From a virus: a stretch of 51,347 bases of DNA. The DNA lies in IMG/VR virus record IMGVR_UViG_3300036792_000046, positions 1 through 51,347 of that record; one strand, written 5' to 3'. The notes below the pieces were generated by a model, which was not told where the DNA came from, made no database searches, and saw only the letters and a list, made by a program, of their open reading frames with translations. A program made the position numbers and the translations under genes. Shown one piece after another: positions 4,322 to 16,187 of the stretch (the stretch's first letter is position 1; every line of letters begins with the position of its first letter).

Positions 4322-4542
4322 ATACCATCGCCGAGTCCGTCGTAGCGCACCGAGGTTGGCGTGCGCTCATGACAGACAAGACAGCGGAAACGCTCCGTAC
4401 GGAACTCGAGCACAGAGCGCTACGCCAGAGCAAGCCGTGTGATACTTGCGGCGCTCTCAAGGGAGATCCGTGCCATAGCAGGTTCGGTCGGATCGTCTTC
4501 ACCTATCACGTAGCAAGAGTCATTGCTACTGAAGAGGTGTGA
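4318..4542 (+). CDS. Small zinc-finger-like protein
   Basis: The 74-residue product has the pattern C-x2-C-GA-x5-PC with a later H-x2-R (CDTCGALKGDPCH, then YHVAR). This matches the short actinobacterial/actinophage zinc-ribbon family usually written C-x2-C-GA-x-x-G-x-PC-...-H-x2-R, thought to bind nucleic acid. TTG 4318 is favoured by AAGGAGG seven bases upstream and by overlap with the previous stop; ATG 4369 is a shorter alternative that keeps the finger. Confidence 0.6.
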   Translation: MNTIAESVVAHRGWRALMTDKTAETLRTELEHRALRQSKPCDTCGALKGDPCHSRFGRIVFTYHVARVIATEEV

Positions 4543-4543
4543 C

Positions 4544-4999
4544 ATGCATGACAACGTGTTCGACATCGAGCAGCGTACGGGAGAGTTCGCTGTCACGCTG
4601 AGCATCAGCATGCAGCAGTTTCTCGACCTGTACCTCGAACCGAATCCTGACGACCCTGACACGTTCGAAGACGAAGAGCGTCTCTACATCATGAGCGCTG
4701 CAAATCTCGAAACGTTGACTGACAAGGCACGTGACAAGGCAGCGGAGCTTCTTCGTGACGCTGCAGACTGCCTAGCACTAGAGCGTCTAGGAGCGACGTT
4801 CCAGGAAGCTAGCAACATGTTCTCCCGCAAAAACGGTCACGGAGACAGTTTCGACCGTGACACCGCATACGAAGATGCACCGTACGAGGCTGACGAGGAC
4901 TGCGCGTTCATGTTGTACTTCGCCTCGGCTCTGTACAGCTTCATCTTCGAAGCACGCAGCCTACTCGATCCGCCACTAGTCAAGGAGACACATGCCTGA
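4544..4999 (+). CDS. Acidic helical hypothetical protein, 151 residues
   Basis: ATG 4544 follows GAAGAGGTGTGAC. Very acidic, with a helical middle section (LTDKARDKAAELLRDAAD) and a C-terminal aromatic helix (FMLYFASALYSFIFEAR) that is probably a buried or interface helix rather than a membrane span. Ends overlapping the next start. Family not recognised. Confidence 0.6.
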   Translation: MHDNVFDIEQRTGEFAVTLSISMQQFLDLYLEPNPDDPDTFEDEERLYIMSAANLETLTDKARDKAAELLRDAADCLALERLGATFQEASNMFSRKNGHGDSFDRDTAYEDAPYEADEDCAFMLYFASALYSFIFEARSLLDPPLVKETHA

Positions 5000-5303
5000 A
5001 GAGAGACGCTGGAGCTACGAAGAGGCCAGCGAAGCGACGGTGGCTCTGCACCATCGTTGGACAGAGTACCTAGCAGAACAGGAACAATCAGATGACGCAC
5101 CATCGTTCGCGGACTTCTTCGCCTGGATGTTCTACACCAAGGGAAGGATCGACGCGACCGATCGTGCTCGACGTGACCGTCAGGCCGAGATCGACAGGCT
5201 CGGGAACGATGCCGCGCGAACGATCGACGGCATCCACTACTTCGAGGGCACGGCGTCAGACCCAGAGGTTGATGACGGACCCAGACATTGGCTTTACTCT
5301 TGA
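4992..5303 (+). CDS. Hypothetical protein, 103 residues
   Basis: ATG 4992 overlaps the previous stop (ATGCCTGA). Mostly charged and helical, with a Phe/Trp-rich centre (FADFFAWMFYTKGR). No signal, membrane or metal motif. Its 3' end overlaps the next gene by 32 bases. Confidence 0.6.
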   Translation: MPEERRWSYEEASEATVALHHRWTEYLAEQEQSDDAPSFADFFAWMFYTKGRIDATDRARRDRQAEIDRLGNDAARTIDGIHYFEGTASDPEVDDGPRHWLYS

Positions 5304-5463
5304 CACGTTTTGGCGTGTCGCCGTAGGCCTTCTGCTGGTCATCATCGGTCTAGCACTCTGCTGCACCATCATTGGCATTCCACTAGGTTTGCCGCTCATC
5401 TTCTTCGCCGGCAAACCCCTTGCCGACAAGCTCAAGATACGAGTCAAGGAGGAAAACACATGA
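5272..5463 (+). CDS. Small membrane protein
   Basis: The 63-residue product begins at ATG 5272. A hydrophobic stretch from about residue 15 to 47, broken by a Cys-Cys pair and a GIPLG turn, is long enough for a hairpin of two membrane segments; the C-terminus is basic. The overall look (GLALCCTIIGIPLGLPLIF) is of the type seen in small phage and bacterial integral membrane proteins of unknown role. It overlaps the previous gene by 32 bases, and its stop overlaps the next start. Confidence 0.65.
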   Translation: MTDPDIGFTLDTFWRVAVGLLLVIIGLALCCTIIGIPLGLPLIFFAGKPLADKLKIRVKEENT

Positions 5464-5843
5464 ACAACGATAAGGTAATCGAAACGGTCCACGATCAGGA
5501 AGAGCCTGACGATCCACGCGATGCCGCACAGGAGACAGGCCTTTACGGTCAAGCCAGTCTGCATGAGGCGATGGGCACGTTGCCAGTCGAGACGTGGTTC
5601 TTCACGTTCGGCATGTCGACCAAGCTCGTGATCTACAACCCCGACATCGCCTTCGACGGTGACCGCCAGGAGGGTCTGCCGATGTCCAAGTACTACGTTC
5701 GCGCGACCGGTACGTACGACGAGGCGCGAGCGAAGATGACCAAGGTGTTCGGTACCAGCGGCTGGGCCTCGCAGTACTCCCAGGTGAGGTTCTTCGAGCT
5801 GATCAGGAAGCACCACTACAAGATGTTCCTTGACCTGAAGTAG
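5460..5843 (+). CDS. Hypothetical protein, 127 residues
   Basis: ATG 5460 overlaps the upstream TGA and is preceded by AAGGAGG. The first 30 residues are acidic and probably disordered; the rest is a compact aromatic-rich domain (TWFFTFG, SKYYVRATGTYDEARAKM) of the general length of a small alpha/beta fold. Function unknown. Confidence 0.65.
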   Translation: MNNDKVIETVHDQEEPDDPRDAAQETGLYGQASLHEAMGTLPVETWFFTFGMSTKLVIYNPDIAFDGDRQEGLPMSKYYVRATGTYDEARAKMTKVFGTSGWASQYSQVRFFELIRKHHYKMFLDLK

Positions 5844-5859
5844 CCTTCCTCCTCTGAAC

Positions 5860-5927
5860 GTCCGGCTAGGGCGAAATTCGTTAGGCACGGAACGGTTGAA
5901 ATCCCGTTAGTAATGTCCTAGCCGGAC
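5860..5927 (+). promoter_or_regulatory. AACGTCC-type hairpin leader, copy 2
   Basis: GTCCGGCTAGG (5860-5870) pairs with CCTAGCCGGAC (5917-5927), 11 base pairs, and AACGG/CCGTT forms an inner hairpin (5891-5908). The flanks match copy 1: AACGTCC on the left and GGACCTTGAAAGGAGG on the right, ending in the ribosome site of the GNAT gene. The stem bases differ from copy 1 while pairing is kept, which argues that structure is selected. Confidence 0.7.
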
Positions 5928-5943
5928 CTTGAAAGGAGGCAAG

Positions 5944-6267
5944 ATGCAAAACTGTTACGTCGACAAGGCACACAACGCAATAGCAGACCTGGTTCGTCCA
6001 GGCGAGCTAACCGAAAACTGGACGGTAACTCGTATCAACGTTCCAATGCGACATCGAGGACAAGGATACGGTACAGCTCTGCTCAAGCGTATCCTCTTCG
6101 ATGCAGACGTTGGAGGTGTTACTCTCCAACTAGAACCTCAGCCCTCAGACGGACTGAGTTACCGTCAACTAGTCGAGTGGTACAGGCGTCACGGATTCGA
6201 ATTCGTGCGTACAGGTTACATGGCTCGTAGTCCGAAAGGGCGAATCGGGCTTGTCCACGCAGAATGA
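5944..6267 (+). CDS. GNAT-family N-acetyltransferase
   Basis: The 107-residue product carries the acetyl-CoA-binding motif R-x-x-G-x-G as RHRGQGYG at residues 36-43, followed by a helix (TALLKRIL) and the C-terminal WYRRHGFEFV segment typical of the GNAT fold. At this length it is a minimal acetyltransferase. The substrate cannot be told; phage GNATs can modify host proteins, toxins or, in Mom-like enzymes, DNA bases. ATG 5944 lies after AAAGGAGG and directly downstream of the hairpin leader at 5860-5927. Confidence 0.8.
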   Translation: MQNCYVDKAHNAIADLVRPGELTENWTVTRINVPMRHRGQGYGTALLKRILFDADVGGVTLQLEPQPSDGLSYRQLVEWYRRHGFEFVRTGYMARSPKGRIGLVHAE

Positions 6268-6282
6268 AAGGAGGTGAACGAA

Positions 6283-6486
6283 ATGAGGACAGGAAGAACT
6301 TACCTGATGGTCGACCCGTCTGAGGATTCCGACAGAGCGTTGGATCTCCACAGGGTGCTCGCTCGTCGGGTTCGTGTGCAGCTAGTCAAGATACACATCC
6401 TCTCGCTGCGCAGGCGTTATGAGGTTGTGTACAACGGGGAAACCTATCGCACAGGACGTCTCTTCACACCCAAGAGGGCCGCATGA
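6283..6486 (+). CDS. Small basic hypothetical protein, 67 residues
   Basis: ATG 6283 is preferred to a GTG nine bases upstream, because GAAAGGAGGTG would then overlap the start. Arg-rich and beta-like in the second half (RYEVVYNGETYRTGRLF). Its stop overlaps the next ATG. Function unknown. Confidence 0.55.
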   Translation: MRTGRTYLMVDPSEDSDRALDLHRVLARRVRVQLVKIHILSLRRRYEVVYNGETYRTGRLFTPKRAA

Positions 6487-6728
6487 AGTGGAAGCTGATC
6501 AGGTTCGGCCGTCGTGTCGAAGCGCTGATACCCAAGAAGCTGTACCACCGTAGCTCGAATTGTAAGACCTTCTTCAATCGCCTGTTCATCTTCAGGCACC
6601 AACGGTCGGCTCGTTTCGACTATGAGTACCTGAGCTACGAAGGCGTTAGGTATATCAACGTCTGGTGGGGCAGTCCGACACGCCATCGCTGGTGGGCACG
6701 TAGTGTCTACCTCTATATTACCCAGTAG
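6483..6728 (+). CDS. Small basic, Trp/Tyr/Arg-rich protein
   Basis: The 81-residue product starts at an ATG overlapping the upstream stop. Strongly basic and aromatic (HRSSNCKTFFNRLF; HRWWARSVYLYI) with no clear membrane span. It is the last gene of the 2389-6728 run and is followed by a fresh promoter. Family unknown. Confidence 0.55.
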   Translation: MKWKLIRFGRRVEALIPKKLYHRSSNCKTFFNRLFIFRHQRSARFDYEYLSYEGVRYINVWWGSPTRHRWWARSVYLYITQ

Positions 6729-6784
6729 GAGGTGCCGTTTAACAGGACCCAAAAAACTTCCCAAAGAAAAACCATGTAAATCAC

Positions 6785-6813
6785 TTGAAGCTCCAATCTG
6801 ACTACTATATAAT
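6785..6813 (+). promoter_or_regulatory. Strong sigma-70-type promoter for the acidic protein and large RNA
   Basis: TTGAAG (6785-6790), exactly 17 bases, TATAAT (6808-6813). This is the best -35/-10 pair seen in the window. It lies about 50 bases before the start at 6868. The unit it drives runs through that gene, the tRNA-like element and the large structured RNA to the terminator at 7915-7991. Confidence 0.8.
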
Positions 6814-6867
6814 AGTCATAGAGCAGAAAACAGAAAAACGAGCAATCCGTTCTAGAGGGAGGACATC

Positions 6868-7320
6868 ATGTCCGAAGCAACCACCGCCCCTGCACCGGCC
6901 CCGGCTGCCGTTCCGACCGCCAGGTTCCCGCTGCCGACGGGCGTCGTCACGCCCATCGAGCTCCGCAACCACCTGGTCAAGGAGAACATCGCTCCGGCGA
7001 CCATGAAGCCGCAGCAGATGTACGCCTGGGTCAAGTCGCCGGGCAAGACCGACCCGTTCCCCGTCAAGTGGTACGACGTCGACGGCAAGGTCTACGACAA
7101 GCAGCCGACCGACCGGCTCACGCGTCCCGGCATCGCGTCGATGGAGATCGGTGTCGAGTGGTACAAGCGCAGGCTCACCGCCACCCCGACAGCGCCCGCT
7201 GCGAGTACCGCTGACGCGGCCACGGCCGATCAGGTCGCCGGCACCGCTGACGACGAGATTACCGATGCGAACACCGACGAGGACGCCGGCGACGAGGGTG
7301 ACTTCGACGAGGCCGAGTAA
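6868..7320 (+). CDS. Acidic-tailed HTH-like protein (paralogue 2), highly expressed
   Basis: The 150-residue product has a Pro/Ala-rich start, a central domain containing MKPQQMYAWVKSPGK, and an Asp/Glu-rich tail. The central segment aligns with VKPQMLYSYHKKGTI of the gene at 265 and IAPQLVYYYIRNKKL of the gene at 9640. Codons are almost all C/G-ending, a contrast with flanking small genes, and it has the best promoter and a GAGGGAGGACATC ribosome site; all point to high expression. It immediately precedes the large structured RNA in the same transcript, so a protein-RNA partnership is possible but not shown. Confidence 0.75.
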   Translation: MSEATTAPAPAPAAVPTARFPLPTGVVTPIELRNHLVKENIAPATMKPQQMYAWVKSPGKTDPFPVKWYDVDGKVYDKQPTDRLTRPGIASMEIGVEWYKRRLTATPTAPAASTADAATADQVAGTADDEITDANTDEDAGDEGDFDEAE

Positions 7321-7327
7321 TCGGCGT

Positions 7328-7389
7328 GAGGGGAAGTGTGGCCCGGAGTCAGTTTGTATCCGTGGGAGGTTCGAATCCTCCTCCCCTCG
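7328..7389 (+). ncRNA. tRNA-like element lacking a D arm
   Basis: GAGGGGA (7328-7334) pairs with TCCCCTC (7382-7388) as a 7-base-pair acceptor stem, followed by G and CAA rather than CCA. The T arm is perfect: GGAGG (7365-7369), loop TTCGAAT, CCTCC (7377-7381). Between them lie only 30 bases instead of the normal ~41: CGGA/TCCG (7344-7347/7359-7362) gives a four-pair stem with an 11-base loop, and there is no room for a D arm. This is not a standard decoding tRNA. It resembles the tRNA-like domain of tmRNA, or a decoy or processing signal at the head of the large RNA. Confidence 0.65.
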
Positions 7390-7991
7390 CAAGGTCCCCG
7401 ATCTGTCGGGAAGACCATCGATCAAGACGCTTGGCTGCGTTCGATGTTGATCGGGGACCGACAACTGAATATGTTTCTGCTTGGAGGGGTAGGCCGGGCG
7501 GTCGTTAGCAGAGCGACAGGCACGAATAAGCCGAGGTAGCGCATACCTCAGGTGACGTCGTTGGGACCAAGCAGAGCAAGCGGACTTCTCTTTGAACCGC
7601 ACGGAGAGACAACCGTGTCTTAATACGGGAGGAGTCCAAAGACGGGACATCGCTGCTGCGTGAACGATGCCGTCGCATCATAAGTCGTAGGGCGTACCTG
7701 GACGGGGAACCTAGGAAGGGCCACTCATCAGGTCTAAAAGCGCTAACGCAGATCGTCGACGGATAGCAACGAAGCACTGATGTCCTCGCCCGGCGAGGCG
7801 AGTTCCCGCTCCAGCCTCGCCGGGCCCAAAGCCGCCGCTAGGCTCAGTCAAGCTGATGCAGTGTCTGGACAGCGTGGGACTACGCAACCCACGTCTGAGC
7901 CTAGCGGTGTAAGCGCCGTTGCCAGGCAGACTCGGAGAAGCGGATCGCCGAGGTGCTCAAAGGATCGCCTGCCTGGCAACGGCATATTTTT
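7390..7991 (+). ncRNA. Large ornate structured non-coding RNA
   Basis: About 600 bases without a credible gene hold at least nine helices: 7393-7402/7450-7459 (10 pairs), 7477-7484/7567-7574 (8), 7533-7538/7544-7549 (6), 7582-7590/7629-7637 (9, one G-U), 7600-7604/7613-7617 (5), 7641-7645 plus 7648-7652 with 7665-7674 (10), 7789-7799/7814-7824 (11), 7835-7847/7895-7907 (13, with inner 7873-7878/7888-7893) and 7915-7929/7969-7983 (15). It follows a tRNA-like element, shares the strong promoter at 6785, and ends in a T-run. Known large phage RNAs that sit beside tRNAs (GOLLD, ROOL) are the closest class by size and context; membership is inference and no consensus motif was recognised. Confidence 0.7.
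7915..7991 (+). terminator. Terminator closing the large RNA
   Basis: A 15-base-pair perfect stem, GCCGTTGCCAGGCAG (7915-7929) with CTGCCTGGCAACGGC (7969-7983), is followed by ATATTTTTA. The 39-base loop contains its own CTCGG/CCGAG hairpin (7931-7935/7948-7952), which is unusual for a simple terminator; the helix may also be part of the RNA fold. Confidence 0.7.
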
Positions 7992-8011
7992 AAACAGGGA
8001 GGTTGTAATAC

Positions 8012-8239
8012 ATGGCACAACTTGATCTGACTGACGACGAGAGAGAAATCCTTCGAGACAACCTCGACATGCAAATTGAAGGCTGGGAAGAGCAGCTCGA
8101 ACAGATCTGCATGCAACCCTTCGACACGTGGGAAGAGTTGCTTAACCACTCGGCCTTCTCGGAAGAAGTAATCAACGCCTTGAAGAAGGCGAGAGAGCAG
8201 CTGCGAGATGAGCGAGACGGCGCCTCCGAAACTGTTTGA
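8012..8239 (+). CDS. Acidic helical protein, 75 residues
   Basis: ATG 8012 follows AGGGAGGTTG about 20 bases after the terminator of the large RNA, so expression needs readthrough or a promoter not recognised here. Composition is almost wholly helical and acidic (Glu/Gln/Leu-rich), suggesting a small helical bundle or coiled coil. It overlaps the next gene by 32 bases. Confidence 0.6.
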   Translation: MAQLDLTDDEREILRDNLDMQIEGWEEQLEQICMQPFDTWEELLNHSAFSEEVINALKKAREQLRDERDGASETV

Positions 8240-11237: not shown

Positions 11238-11638
11238 TAGCAATCGCCGATACTGTCTGGTGGATACTGACACACCTGAAGATCGATCTCATCGTCGTAG
11301 TAGGCGTGGTGTGTTTGGCGATCGTGGCCATCTTCTACCGTGCACTGAACCGGGGAGGGTTTTGGATTTTCCTACACGGAACAGAGCATCCTAGCTGGCG
11401 CAGCTGTACTCAGTGTTCAGGAATGGGCGTCCTAATGATGGACGGGAGTATCATTCCTAAGGAGTACAGGACGTACTACAAGGAAGATGACGGTGGCTAC
11501 GTTCAGAAGACTGCGATCGCAAACACCAAGACGTGCGAGTACTGTCTCGGCCATGGAGGCCGTTGGCATTACTCCAACAGTGCGCTTCGACGAGATATTC
11601 CTACTCGCCGACCAGGGGAGACGTGGCACCATGATTAA
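11201..11638 (+). CDS. Membrane protein with DnaJ-like CxxCxGxG motifs
   Basis: The 145-residue product has two hydrophobic spans (about residues 3-23 and 29-48), then a soluble domain with CTQCSGMG (C69, C72) and CEYCLGHG (C112, C115). Two CxxCxGxG repeats are the zinc-binding signature of the DnaJ central domain; here there is one pair rather than the four repeats of DnaJ, and there is no J domain. It should sit in the membrane with a small zinc domain, presumably inside. Its 3' end overlaps the helicase gene. Role unknown. Confidence 0.65.
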   Translation: MAWFFSACWWTIVAIADTVWWILTHLKIDLIVVVGVVCLAIVAIFYRALNRGGFWIFLHGTEHPSWRSCTQCSGMGVLMMDGSIIPKEYRTYYKEDDGGYVQKTAIANTKTCEYCLGHGGRWHYSNSALRRDIPTRRPGETWHHD

Positions 11639-13136
11639 CTCGATCCAGCCGTATCCGTTTCAGATGGACTGCGTTAGGCAAGTAGCCAAGCCGCAGTACG
11701 CGGGACGACTCGTAGCTGACGACATGGGGCTCGGAAAGACTCTCGAAGGCCTGCTCATCGATGGAGAACTGCGCGCTCCGAGGAACTATCCGGATATCAC
11801 GGATCCGAAACGTCTGCCGATGTACAGGCGACCAACTCTAATCGTTGCTCCCCTAGGTGTACATAGAACCTGGGTCAAGCACATCAGGATGGTCAACGAC
11901 AACTGGACCGAAGAGTCCTTCGCTCGGAACATCGCCGTCATCGACAAGAAGAATCGACCAGCCCTCGTCGAGCGTCTCCGGACGAAGCCGCTTCCGATGT
12001 ACGTGATCGTGCACTATGAGGCCCTTAGGCTGATGCCTGAGCTGACCGAAATGACCTGGTTCCACGTCATGTGCGACGAAGTCCACAGGGTGAAGAACCG
12101 TGCGGCGCAGCAGACGGCAAGCCTGAAGAGGATACCGACATACTATCGAACTGGTCTCTCGGGAACACCTGCTGACGACAAGCCTGCTGACATCTGGTCG
12201 GTTCTCAACTGGCTCTACCCCAAGGAGTTCAGGTCCTACTGGAGGTTCGTCAACACCTACTGCATCCAGGAGTTGAGCGAGAACCGAGGACAAGGTAGGT
12301 CGTTCCGTAAGATCACAGGTGTCAACCTGGCGGCTCTGCCGCAGCTACACGAACAGTGGAAGGGCTGGTATATCCGCAGGACCAAAGCCGACGTCGCTAT
12401 CGACTTGCCTCCGAAGACGTACACCCAGATCGAAGTGGACCTACTTCCGAGTCAGCGCAAGGCATACGAGCAGATGCGCAAGGACATGATTGCCTGGCTC
12501 GGTGAGCACGAGGACGTACCTTTGGTAGCCCCTGTGGTGATCGCGCAGCTGGTACGCCTGCAACAGATGGCACTAGCGACAGTCCAGTTCAACGAGGCTG
12601 GTAAGGTAACCTTGATCGATCCGTCAGCCAAGATGGACAGACTGGAGGAACTGATCGATGGTAATCCGAACGAACCACTTGTGGTCTTTTCCCAGTCAAG
12701 AAGCATGGTGGAACTGTGCGTTCGACGTCTACAGGCTAAAGGTATTTCGATACGGCCTTACACTGGTTCGGTATCCCAGGCAACTCGAGATCTGGCCGTT
12801 GAGGAGTTTCAGGCAGGTGACGTACAAGTTCTTGCTGGGACAATCGCAGCTGGTGGTGAAGGTATCGAACTCCATCGCGCAAGTACGACGGTTTTCTTCG
12901 ATCGAGCTTGGAACCCAACCCGCAACAGGCAAGCGGAGGATCGAACGCACCGAATCGGTCAGCTACGGCCAGTTCAGATAATCGACTTCGTCGCGCCTAA
13001 CACCGTAGACATGGGACGCAACCAGCGTATCCAGAACAAGTGGCAGAACCTGATGTGGCTGCTCACGCCAAGGACAGGAACACTACAAGACGAAGCGCTA
13101 CACGATGCGCTCGGTATATTCGTCGGAGGAATGTAA
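11631..13136 (+). CDS. SNF2-type DEAD/H-box helicase
   Basis: The 501-residue product shows the superfamily 2 motifs in order: Walker A ADDMGLGKT (about residues 29-37), DEVHR (motif II), LSGTPADDKPADIWS (motif III), and in the second domain VVFSQS, LAGTIAAGGEGIEL (motif V) and QAEDRTHRIGQ (motif VI). Q-A-x-D-R-x-H-R-I-G-Q is diagnostic of SWI2/SNF2 ATPases, which translocate on double-stranded DNA. Phage members may help replication, recombination or clearing of bound proteins. ATG 11631 follows AGGGGAGACGTGGCACC; a longer in-frame start lies inside the upstream gene and is unlikely. Confidence 0.92.
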   Translation: MINSIQPYPFQMDCVRQVAKPQYAGRLVADDMGLGKTLEGLLIDGELRAPRNYPDITDPKRLPMYRRPTLIVAPLGVHRTWVKHIRMVNDNWTEESFARNIAVIDKKNRPALVERLRTKPLPMYVIVHYEALRLMPELTEMTWFHVMCDEVHRVKNRAAQQTASLKRIPTYYRTGLSGTPADDKPADIWSVLNWLYPKEFRSYWRFVNTYCIQELSENRGQGRSFRKITGVNLAALPQLHEQWKGWYIRRTKADVAIDLPPKTYTQIEVDLLPSQRKAYEQMRKDMIAWLGEHEDVPLVAPVVIAQLVRLQQMALATVQFNEAGKVTLIDPSAKMDRLEELIDGNPNEPLVVFSQSRSMVELCVRRLQAKGISIRPYTGSVSQATRDLAVEEFQAGDVQVLAGTIAAGGEGIELHRASTTVFFDRAWNPTRNRQAEDRTHRIGQLRPVQIIDFVAPNTVDMGRNQRIQNKWQNLMWLLTPRTGTLQDEALHDALGIFVGGM

Positions 13137-14565: not shown

Positions 14566-14728
14566 CGAGGATAGGGCCGTGGCCTTCGAGGCTAAGGTCA
14601 GGAAGCTTCTCGAGGACGACGACATGCAAGTAGTTAGCGAGACGGAAGTCCGCGACATACTTGCATCAATGACTCCTGGAGATCCACTCCAGGCGACAAG
14701 AGAAGGAGATGGCAGTGCTACGAGGTAA
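14396..14728 (+). CDS. Hypothetical protein, 110 residues
   Basis: ATG 14396 has a strong site, CAGGGAGGAAGTCG, even though it lies inside the previous gene. Predicted alpha/beta (HSVLMEIVFLDEDRAVAFEAKVRKLL), ferredoxin-like in length and pattern. It overlaps the secreted-protein gene downstream by 20 bases. Confidence 0.6.
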   Translation: MATEKVRVNIVATMIPAPPPLTSLHWYKLDLRREFPQVSTPWRQPEHSVLMEIVFLDEDRAVAFEAKVRKLLEDDDMQVVSETEVRDILASMTPGDPLQATREGDGSATR

Positions 14729-16187
14729 ACTCCTCGCCGCAACAGCGGCAGCACTACCGGCGCTCTTCCTGATTGCAGGAGCAGCGCAAGCAAGTCCCAG
14801 TCCTACGCCTACCACTCCAGGTGGTCTGACAACGCTACAACCGGCCGCGTCAACATCTCAGCCAGGTGACGTGGTACCTGGAGGCCTCGTTCTCCAACAG
14901 TTCGCCCACAACAAGACAGGGAGCAACAGCGACCTCGGAAGTTTGGCGAAGGCCAACCAGGTGACCCCTGCTACTTCCAACTACGAGTACTCGGTTCTTG
15001 GCGTTTCGGTCTCCGGCTCGGAGCAGTGGGGTACGGTCGAAGAGAACAACGACACGACCGCTTACCCGGTTGGCAACAACCAGGGCACTACCGAGTCCGA
15101 CAGCATCTGGTACGGAGGCCAACACTCCCTCCAGAACTTCGTGGTCTCGGGTACCTGTGAGCCGGGCAACGCATCGTGTACGTCCAACCCTCTCATCGAG
15201 ATCACCGTCATCACAGGCCAGCAGTACTGCAAGTCGGGCCTGCACGCATGCTACGAGGTGCAGACTTGGAAGAACGGTGTCTGGACGCACTCCGACGGCT
15301 ACGTGGATCTCACCACGGGCTACCAGGGCGGTTGGCCGTCAGACGGGACGAAGCACTTCGGAGACCACGCGGACATCACGCTAGGTTTCCTGAAGTCCTT
15401 CGGACGACTGAACCTGGTCGCTGACGGTCATGGTACCACCAACATCGTCGGCTACATCCCTACTAGCTACTGGGGTCAGTCGACATCGTACGGCTTCGGG
15501 AACATCACCGAGGAGTCGCTCCAGACTGAGGTCTTCGAGGCCAACCCGAACTGGACCACTGCTCCGATCCCGTCGATGAACTACACCTACACCAACTGGG
15601 CAGACAGCAACGGAAACACGCTGCCTACTCCAACAGTGGACAGTCCTTACTCGCTCGTCAGTTCGAACTCGACGGGCTACGTCGTCTCAGGAGGCAATGG
15701 ACCTACTCAGACATCAGCGCCGTTCTACGGGCCATCCGAAGCGGACGCAGACAACCCCGGTCTGAGCGGCTACGGGACCTGCCTCGGCAACTCCGGTAAC
15801 TCTCAGACCAACGGCAACCACATCGTCATTTGGGACTGCGGCAGTGCTGGCAAGGCGCAGCAGTTCAACTTCGATCCCAACACTGGCTACCTCCAGACGC
15901 AAGACGGCGGAGCCAATGGCAAGTGCATCGACGATCCGGGTAACAGCACCGTGAACGACACGAAGGTCGTACTCGAACCGTGCGGTACCTCCGGAACCGT
16001 CTGGTCACTAGCTCTGGTCAGCGGTAGCAACTACGTCAAGTACGTGGGCGGTAGCAACGGCAACATGTGCCTCATGGACTTGAACGGTAGCGACACCAAC
16101 GGTCAGCAGGTCGAAGTGGCAGGCTGCAACAACTCCACCTGGCTCCAGTGGGATGCATTCTCCACTTGGGGCTACAACTTCCCGTAG
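14709..16187 (+). CDS. Large secreted protein with C-terminal ricin-B-like lectin domain
   Basis: The 492-residue product begins with a clear Sec signal peptide (basic start, hydrophobic core, AQAS cleavage near residue 29) and a Ser/Thr/Pro linker. Residues ~90-300 form a Trp/Gly/Tyr-rich beta domain containing VGYIPTSYWGQS and GNITEESLQTEVFE; the layout recalls the neprosin (DUF239) fold, an idea that needs a profile search. Residues ~350-490 carry two to three repeats of the beta-trefoil type (GKCIDDPGNS, NMCLMDLNGSDTNGQQVEV), typical of carbohydrate-binding ricin B domains. A phage-encoded secreted lectin is unusual; it may bind the host wall or mucus or block superinfection. Codons suggest high expression. 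Confidence 0.75.
   Translation: MAVLRGKLLAATAAALPALFLIAGAAQASPSPTPTTPGGLTTLQPAASTSQPGDVVPGGLVLQQFAHNKTGSNSDLGSLAKANQVTPATSNYEYSVLGVSVSGSEQWGTVEENNDTTAYPVGNNQGTTESDSIWYGGQHSLQNFVVSGTCEPGNASCTSNPLIEITVITGQQYCKSGLHACYEVQTWKNGVWTHSDGYVDLTTGYQGGWPSDGTKHFGDHADITLGFLKSFGRLNLVADGHGTTNIVGYIPTSYWGQSTSYGFGNITEESLQTEVFEANPNWTTAPIPSMNYTYTNWADSNGNTLPTPTVDSPYSLVSSNSTGYVVSGGNGPTQTSAPFYGPSEADADNPGLSGYGTCLGNSGNSQTNGNHIVIWDCGSAGKAQQFNFDPNTGYLQTQDGGANGKCIDDPGNSTVNDTKVVLEPCGTSGTVWSLALVSGSNYVKYVGGSNGNMCLMDLNGSDTNGQQVEVAGCNNSTWLQWDAFSTWGYNFP

Follow-up and report, generated by a model that had tools for sequence, protein, structure and literature searches.

GOLLD and ROOL are large RNAs of phages, found near tRNA islands and forming RNA cages (PMC12286853). 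In the rRNA leaders of mycobacteria a putative boxA antitermination element has been described (PMC10218544). The locus described in this work is a phage interval which resembles both systems. With GOLLD and ROOL it shares its phage origin, its large size, its many stems and, as far as its tRNA-like element stands for tRNAs, the presence of such elements near or inside it; it differs in having no Rfam match, in its exchangeable domains and in one domain which occurs elsewhere as a free-standing small RNA. With the actinobacterial rRNA operons, where boxA is found in leader and spacer, it has in common a structured non-coding RNA preceded by TTGA(G/C)AACTNNAYAG, while it contains no rRNA and its own motif, TTGACAACTNAATAG, is similar but not identical.

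RNase P would be expected to cut a tRNA-like element that separates an mRNA from another RNA. The order of mRNA, tRNA-like element and RNA in the interval is that of tRNA punctuation and of MALAT1/mascRNA-type processing, with the difference that the interval belongs to a prokaryotic phage and that cleavage here is putative. The tmRNA likewise has an acceptor and a T arm and no proper D or anticodon arm; in the phage element, unlike tmRNA, both acceptor strands close one compact unit of 62 nt, and no tag-reading frame was identified. A partial search of the literature, covering open-licence papers, found no description of the locus or of the RNA family R1 presented below.

The interval and its flanking genes

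The window, i.e. the whole stretch of DNA analysed, has 51,347 bases and constitutes one metagenomic virus record (IMGVR_UViG_3300036792_000046). Terminases of actinobacteriophages are at best about 34-36% identical to that of the window, which together with the boxA-like motif points to an actinobacterial host; soil actinobacteria are probably the hosts. Among other genes of the window are those for an SNF2-type helicase (11487-13136, + strand) and for a 492-aa protein with a C-terminal ricin-type beta-trefoil lectin domain (14709-16187, + strand).

The RNA interval, positions 7321 to 8011, lies between the genes of an acidic protein and of a 75-aa protein, both on the + strand (Table 1). The acidic protein has no Pfam match; its C-terminus is E(A/V)E in 14 of 14 aligned homologues, mostly FxEAE, and a core FPVKxY...TRPG is kept across them. 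For the 75-aa protein the Pfam result is a sub-threshold match to uroporphyrinogen decarboxylase, which is probably due to chance. A TATAAT-type promoter is found 5' of the acidic gene in nearly all relatives. The sequence-only reading had called that of the window its best promoter: it is a good site, with 10 of 12 consensus matches, but two others in the first 20 kb score equally. Judged by position, it would also drive the RNA interval.

Table 1. Features of the RNA interval and its borders (window coordinates).
Feature	Position	Strand	Description and evidence
Sigma-70-type promoter of acidic gene	6785-6813	+	TTGAAG, 17 nt, TATAAT; consensus scan
Acidic protein gene	6868-7320	+	150 aa, ends FDEAE; conserved upstream neighbour; homologues in related records, protein alignment
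tRNA-like element	7328-7389	+	acceptor 7328-7334/7382-7388, T stem 7365-7369/7377-7381, T loop TTCGAAT 7370-7376, discriminator G7389
Hairpin domain	7393-7459	+	perfect 11-bp closing stem; fold, inverted repeat
Perfect inverted repeat, 11 bp	7393-7403/7449-7459		
boxA-like motif	7460-7471	+	GACAACTGAATA; resembles boxA of actinobacterial rRNA operons (TTGAGAACTCAATAGTG type)
Domain 3	7476-7575	+	multi-branched, closed by TCTGCTTGG/CCAAGCAGA; fold, inverted repeats
Domain 4	7581-7638	+	GGACTTCTC...GGAGGAGTCC stem, GAA facing AAUACGG; blastn to L192, alignment, folds
Module A-like domain (tentative)	7644-7787	+	GGGACATCGCTGCTGCGTG ... AGCACTGATGTCC, contains module B; 5' strand within L192 blastn match
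Module B	7674-7754	+	TAAGTCGTAGGGCGTACCT ... GGTCTAAAAGCGCT; similar in L194, L196 at same locus
Hairpin	7788-7825	+	perfect 12-bp stem; inverted repeat
Perfect inverted repeat, 12 bp	7788-7799/7814-7825		
R1 three-way-junction RNA (model match)	7838-7905	+	closing helix 7835-7847/7895-7907, P2 hairpin (14-nt loop), P3 hairpin, L2-L3 pseudoknot
Perfect inverted repeat, 13 bp	7835-7847/7895-7907		
Closing hairpin	7915-7991	+	perfect 15 bp, 39-nt loop, then T-run; inverted repeat, long hairpin at same place in relatives
Perfect inverted repeat, 15 bp	7915-7929/7969-7983		
75-aa protein gene	8012-8239	+	conserved downstream neighbour; tblastn matches, same order in relatives

The interval is non-coding: none of its open frames is common to the corresponding intervals of divergent relatives, in agreement with the earlier statement that its roughly 660 bases hold no credible gene. 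In two relatives which are 84% identical (L204 and L206) shared frames occur equally on both strands, and the few frame matches of 22-50 residues between intervals (E 1e-3 to 1e-5) track DNA similarity. Its fold reaches -309.5 kcal/mol, compared to -260.8 +/- 8.4 for dinucleotide shuffles (z -5.8), so that the proposal of a large structured non-coding RNA region is confirmed. Long perfect stems are present as claimed; those of at least 11 bp are four, not three, and there is also a perfect inverted repeat of 9 bp. The terminal stem with its T-run is likewise where it had been placed, and was missed by a simple terminator scan because of its long loop. Neither the hairpin domain with the 11-bp stem nor the hairpin with the 12-bp stem had a homologue among the sequences searched, and homology of domain 3 is partial, its 3' part lying within the match to a relative (L192).

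That no known RNA family had been recognised was upheld: Rfam 15 gave no match in the whole window at gathering thresholds, self-splicing introns, RNase P RNA and riboswitches included, and none for GOLLD or ROOL in 6700-8100 at E values up to 10, while relaxed thresholds yielded in the interval only matches far below their thresholds. For tmRNA there was neither an ARAGORN call nor an Rfam match in the window, and sub-threshold fragments only (15.9 bits, gathering 47) in the relative L227. Across the window, the R1 loci and the relatives, at gathering as well as relaxed thresholds, the Rfam matches were limited to tRNA, rRNA, such tmRNA fragments, weak matches attributed to chance and, outside the interval, two hammerheads.

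The three-way-junction RNA R1

On the basis of a covariance model the last big domain of the interval is assigned to a new RNA family, R1. The model, built from 20 loci with the window left out and thus independent of it, matches the domain with 56.5 bits (E 2.4e-11) and recovers 60 of the 60 loci searched, some of which are duplicates of one element; R1 is known from some 50 loci of actinobacterial phages and genomes. The starting lead was a 41-bp, 85% blastn match to Streptomyces phage TurkishDelight, located at the edge of an intergenic stretch, where the common hairpin pair stands within a long closing helix. Apart from this match, phage and plasmid sequences searched by blastn with the full region gave only short tRNA-like or chance matches. 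A pattern made from the TurkishDelight match found 41 viral loci and further patterns added more. Real members carry GCYGATGCAGYGYCYGGRCRGC followed by a 5-bp hairpin, both enclosed by a closing helix whose sequence varies and whose length is about 6-15 bp. The pattern GGAAGYGCYGATGCAGYG was discarded for its many unrelated matches, and most pattern matches outside Actinomycetota (Pantoea, Thiobacillus, Pseudomonas and others), having neither second hairpin nor closing helix, were set aside as chance.

Over all loci, 97.7% of the cells in the R1 pairing are paired and 14 of 19 pairs are changed on both sides, with a covariation score of 0.565, where slid versions score 0.06-0.17 and shuffles 0.16; the alignment behind the 97.7% and the 0.565 is fitted to the model, and an unfitted one (n=20) gives 98.9% and 0.484. 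The unfitted count includes a loop-loop pseudoknot of three pairs (GYG with CRC), one of which varies, in step. The compensatory changes exceed both kinds of control. Conservation of the core is in part imposed by the search patterns, from which the helices outside the core are free. Rfam had no match to R1 in the 11 loci tested, and ARAGORN likewise does not recognise it.

The named organisms with R1 contigs are Streptomyces, Actinomadura and Kutzneria, with one copy per genome, and under stricter filters R1 was found in 0 of 394 other genomes of the class. Single copies and this absence fit an RNA of phages or mobile elements, and the reading as a host RNA was rejected. tRNAs are near R1 at 7 of 53 loci, and at least four loci lie between tRNAs. 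At three of them (L014, L016, L038) R1 has a tRNA immediately on either side, at a distance of no more than about 3 nt; it thus occupies a single slot of a phage tRNA array, from whose tRNAs it differs in being a three-way junction with a pseudoknot, and processing of the neighbouring tRNAs would free it with ends at its closing helix.

At seventeen other loci the next 110 nt or so 3' of R1 contain a Shine-Dalgarno-like site and a start codon, and many of the remaining ones are followed, as read by eye, by a GC-rich, terminator-like hairpin. A function solely as riboswitch or leader was rejected as a general explanation given the loci near and between tRNAs and those with terminator-like hairpins; the copies before start codons could still act in cis. 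In the window the closing hairpin begins within 10 nt 3' of R1, and because of this position a put-like antiterminator or an exonuclease block was considered. The R1 loops have no pairing match of 7 nt or more in the piece of rRNA tested. In one group of Streptomyces elements (L048, L057, L063, L103, L002) R1 is preceded by a conserved intergenic stretch (GTCGGCGGAGCATSATAGGCC...), which may be a promoter region.

Variable RNA modules at the same locus in related phages

A search with the terminase gave 24 relatives of 72-85% identity, 15 of which carry the acidic gene, and an alignment-based protein search added two records (L224, L227). Between the acidic gene and the 75-aa gene, or the next conserved gene, there are 95 to about 1,500 nt, and 16 distinct intervals, that of the window included, are found at this locus. 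Each of the 13 intervals tested for folding was more stable than its dinucleotide shuffles (z -2.8 to -8.7). The recurrent parts are tRNA-like elements, the boxA-like motif, conserved modules and, ahead of the next gene, a closing hairpin; in L200 and L218 the locus is near-empty, with little beyond this hairpin.

Even intervals with little else keep the long hairpin 5' of the 75-aa gene, which would suit a cis-acting untranslated region. Its stems and tRNA-like element would stabilise the acidic mRNA or bring about its termination and would control expression of the 75-aa gene, with no role in trans. The position between two genes of the same strand and the several R1 copies directly 5' of start codons go in the same direction. 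Exchangeable modules amounting to 95 to 1,500 nt would, however, be superfluous in such an element, no coding gene adjoins R1 for regulation where it lies between tRNAs, and the conserved bases of its loops suggest a specific partner. We consider this explanation unlikely.

By blastn, positions 7549-7670 match L192 (E 2.9e-8) and positions 7675-7765 match L194 (E 2.0e-6) and L196 (9e-5). The stem bases of domain 4 differ yet remain paired in L192, L195 and L197; the bases opposite GAA are GUACG in three relatives, and in the window they are AUACG, an internal motif which may resemble the rRNA bulged-G motif. Module A (GGGACAACGCTG...CACTGGTGTCCC) is present in eight relatives. Its covariance model, R2, built from six of them, recovers the left-out L206 (3e-12) and L195 (2e-4) and does not detect the window, whose similarity to L192 is partial and at sequence level; membership of the window domain in module A is tentative. 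At least two new families, R1 and R2, bear out the suggestion of a new class, R1 being the one found in the window. A large insertion, module B, occupies the module A-like domain of the window, whereas in L194 and L196 module B stands alone. In L194, L196 and L197 another conserved module (GGATGSCAGTCTGGG ... GGCAGG), not seen in the window, adjoins the tRNA-like element 5' of the 75-aa gene. The R1 model gave no match in the sampled relatives, and R1 may for this reason be a recent arrival in the window.

The locus is an array of exchangeable RNA domains, unlike one fixed RNA, and this module exchange argues against one fixed assembly of the GOLLD and ROOL sort. The initial proposal of one ornate RNA like these two was not supported: the modules change at a fixed locus, R1 is free-standing elsewhere and no model matches. 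A single large assembly, homo-oligomeric or a cage, with variable peripheral domains, could still draw on size, stems and tRNA proximity like those of GOLLD and ROOL (PMC12286853), and on loop 2 of R1, whose near-palindromic YCYGGR is mostly self-complementary (TCCGGA, CCCGGG, CCTGGG, TCTGGA) and might be a kissing site. Set against differing order, nesting and content among relatives, a length which varies from 95 to about 1,500 nt, R1 occurring alone elsewhere and an interval with no Rfam match, it appears improbable.

The tRNA-like element without a D arm, with which the RNA had been said to begin, starts 8 nt 3' of the stop codon of the acidic gene and comprises an acceptor of 7 bp and, stacked on it, a T stem of 5 bp; a normal anticodon arm is absent. 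Under a strict definition, which requires 6 or more Watson-Crick pairs in the 7-bp acceptor, a T stem of 5 bp and a TTCRANN loop, the 10.5 kb of intervals hold seven such elements. Control sequence of these loci (198 kb) and 50 shuffles have none, so that the enrichment is beyond chance. Of the seven, that of L197 is a normal tRNA-Met and that of L194 has a tRNA-Gly call; no tRNA is called for the remaining ones, among them the element of the window, and two have a middle of 95-98 nt. The element is at the 5' end of the interval in the window and near the 3' end in L194 and L196. No four-arm tRNA with an anticodon was recognised in the window's element: ARAGORN called no tRNA in the window, and the best Rfam match of 7327-7389, at relaxed thresholds, is tRNA-Sec with 20.6 bits against a gathering threshold of 47. 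As regards the location of GOLLD and ROOL near phage tRNA genes, the window has a tRNA-like element and L197 a real tRNA.

Degenerate D and anticodon arms, and the real tRNA-Met of L197, could also be expected from a decaying tRNA cluster with recombination debris, the structure being a by-product of old tRNAs and terminators. Acceptor and T arms, however, remain paired though the rest varies, every interval tested folds below its shuffles, and R1 and module A show compensatory changes; decay is thus a very improbable origin.

The boxA-like motif, as (T)TGACAACTNAATAG or a close variant, is present in 12 copies in 11 of the 16 intervals, and was found neither elsewhere in the window on either strand nor on the sense strand of the loci and flanks examined. 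The rRNA counterpart, TTGAGAACTNNAYAGTG, occurs in 30 of 60 genomes of the class; one Streptomyces genome has six copies, the one examined being located between 16S and 23S. The likeness spans 11-12 nt and is imperfect.

A candidate cassette locus for structured RNAs

For a non-coding, structured, modular and hypervariable interval, enriched in tRNA-like and boxA-like elements and with an R1 member by model in its 3' part, the explanation we favour, at a probability of about one half, is an accessory RNA-cassette locus ("RNA island"): one transcript, antiterminated and cut into trans-acting RNAs. Transcription would start from the promoter of the acidic gene, as order and strand suggest, and the boxA-like element of actinobacterial rRNA type may let RNA polymerase pass the many stems. 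The tRNA-like minihelix would mark the place where RNase P and tRNA 3' processing cut, splitting the acidic mRNA from the downstream RNAs, and the freed domains would be separate trans-acting RNAs in infection, with factors of the host or of rivals as likely targets. As the locus is accessory and hypervariable, counter-defence or host takeover may be guessed as their role.

This RNA island is favoured by a fixed locus of 95 to about 1,500 nt with modules in differing order and nesting, by the recovery of L206 and L195 with R2, by motif enrichment, by the covariation of R1 and by the lack of Rfam matches. Points against it are that R1 is absent in the relatives, that R2 misses the window, that some domains have no homologues, that the boxA is imperfect and that only 7 of the 53 R1 loci are near tRNAs. 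The hypervariable RNA-cassette locus would be new in kind, while R1 alone is a new candidate family of structured RNA, a familiar sort of find.

In a wider and more tentative form, some phages might keep a dedicated cargo locus for structured RNAs, with cassettes that are swapped between phages, have a promoter, rRNA-like antitermination and tRNA-like cutting in common and each act in trans on host or rivals. R1, found within tRNA arrays of phages as well, would be one of them. Such a locus would be the RNA counterpart of accessory-gene or anti-defence islands. The accessory loci of phages are mapped by their proteins, and gene callers would miss one with RNA cargo. If the tRNA-like elements are cut by RNase P, the phage would be using tRNA punctuation to deliver RNAs other than tRNA. 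For experimental work R1 offers a handle, with its approximately 50 loci, strong covariation and a copy in the cultured phage TurkishDelight.

Two minor observations concern the relatives. No hammerhead ribozyme was found in the window at 4500-6900; in L194 (2382-2445, - strand) and L196 (2978-3036, - strand) type II hammerheads above the Rfam gathering threshold are located 5' of the acidic gene. L199 and L217 have gained a protein gene inside the interval (MSKFRIVAIGASAAVLL... in L199), and the cargo may thus possibly include protein.
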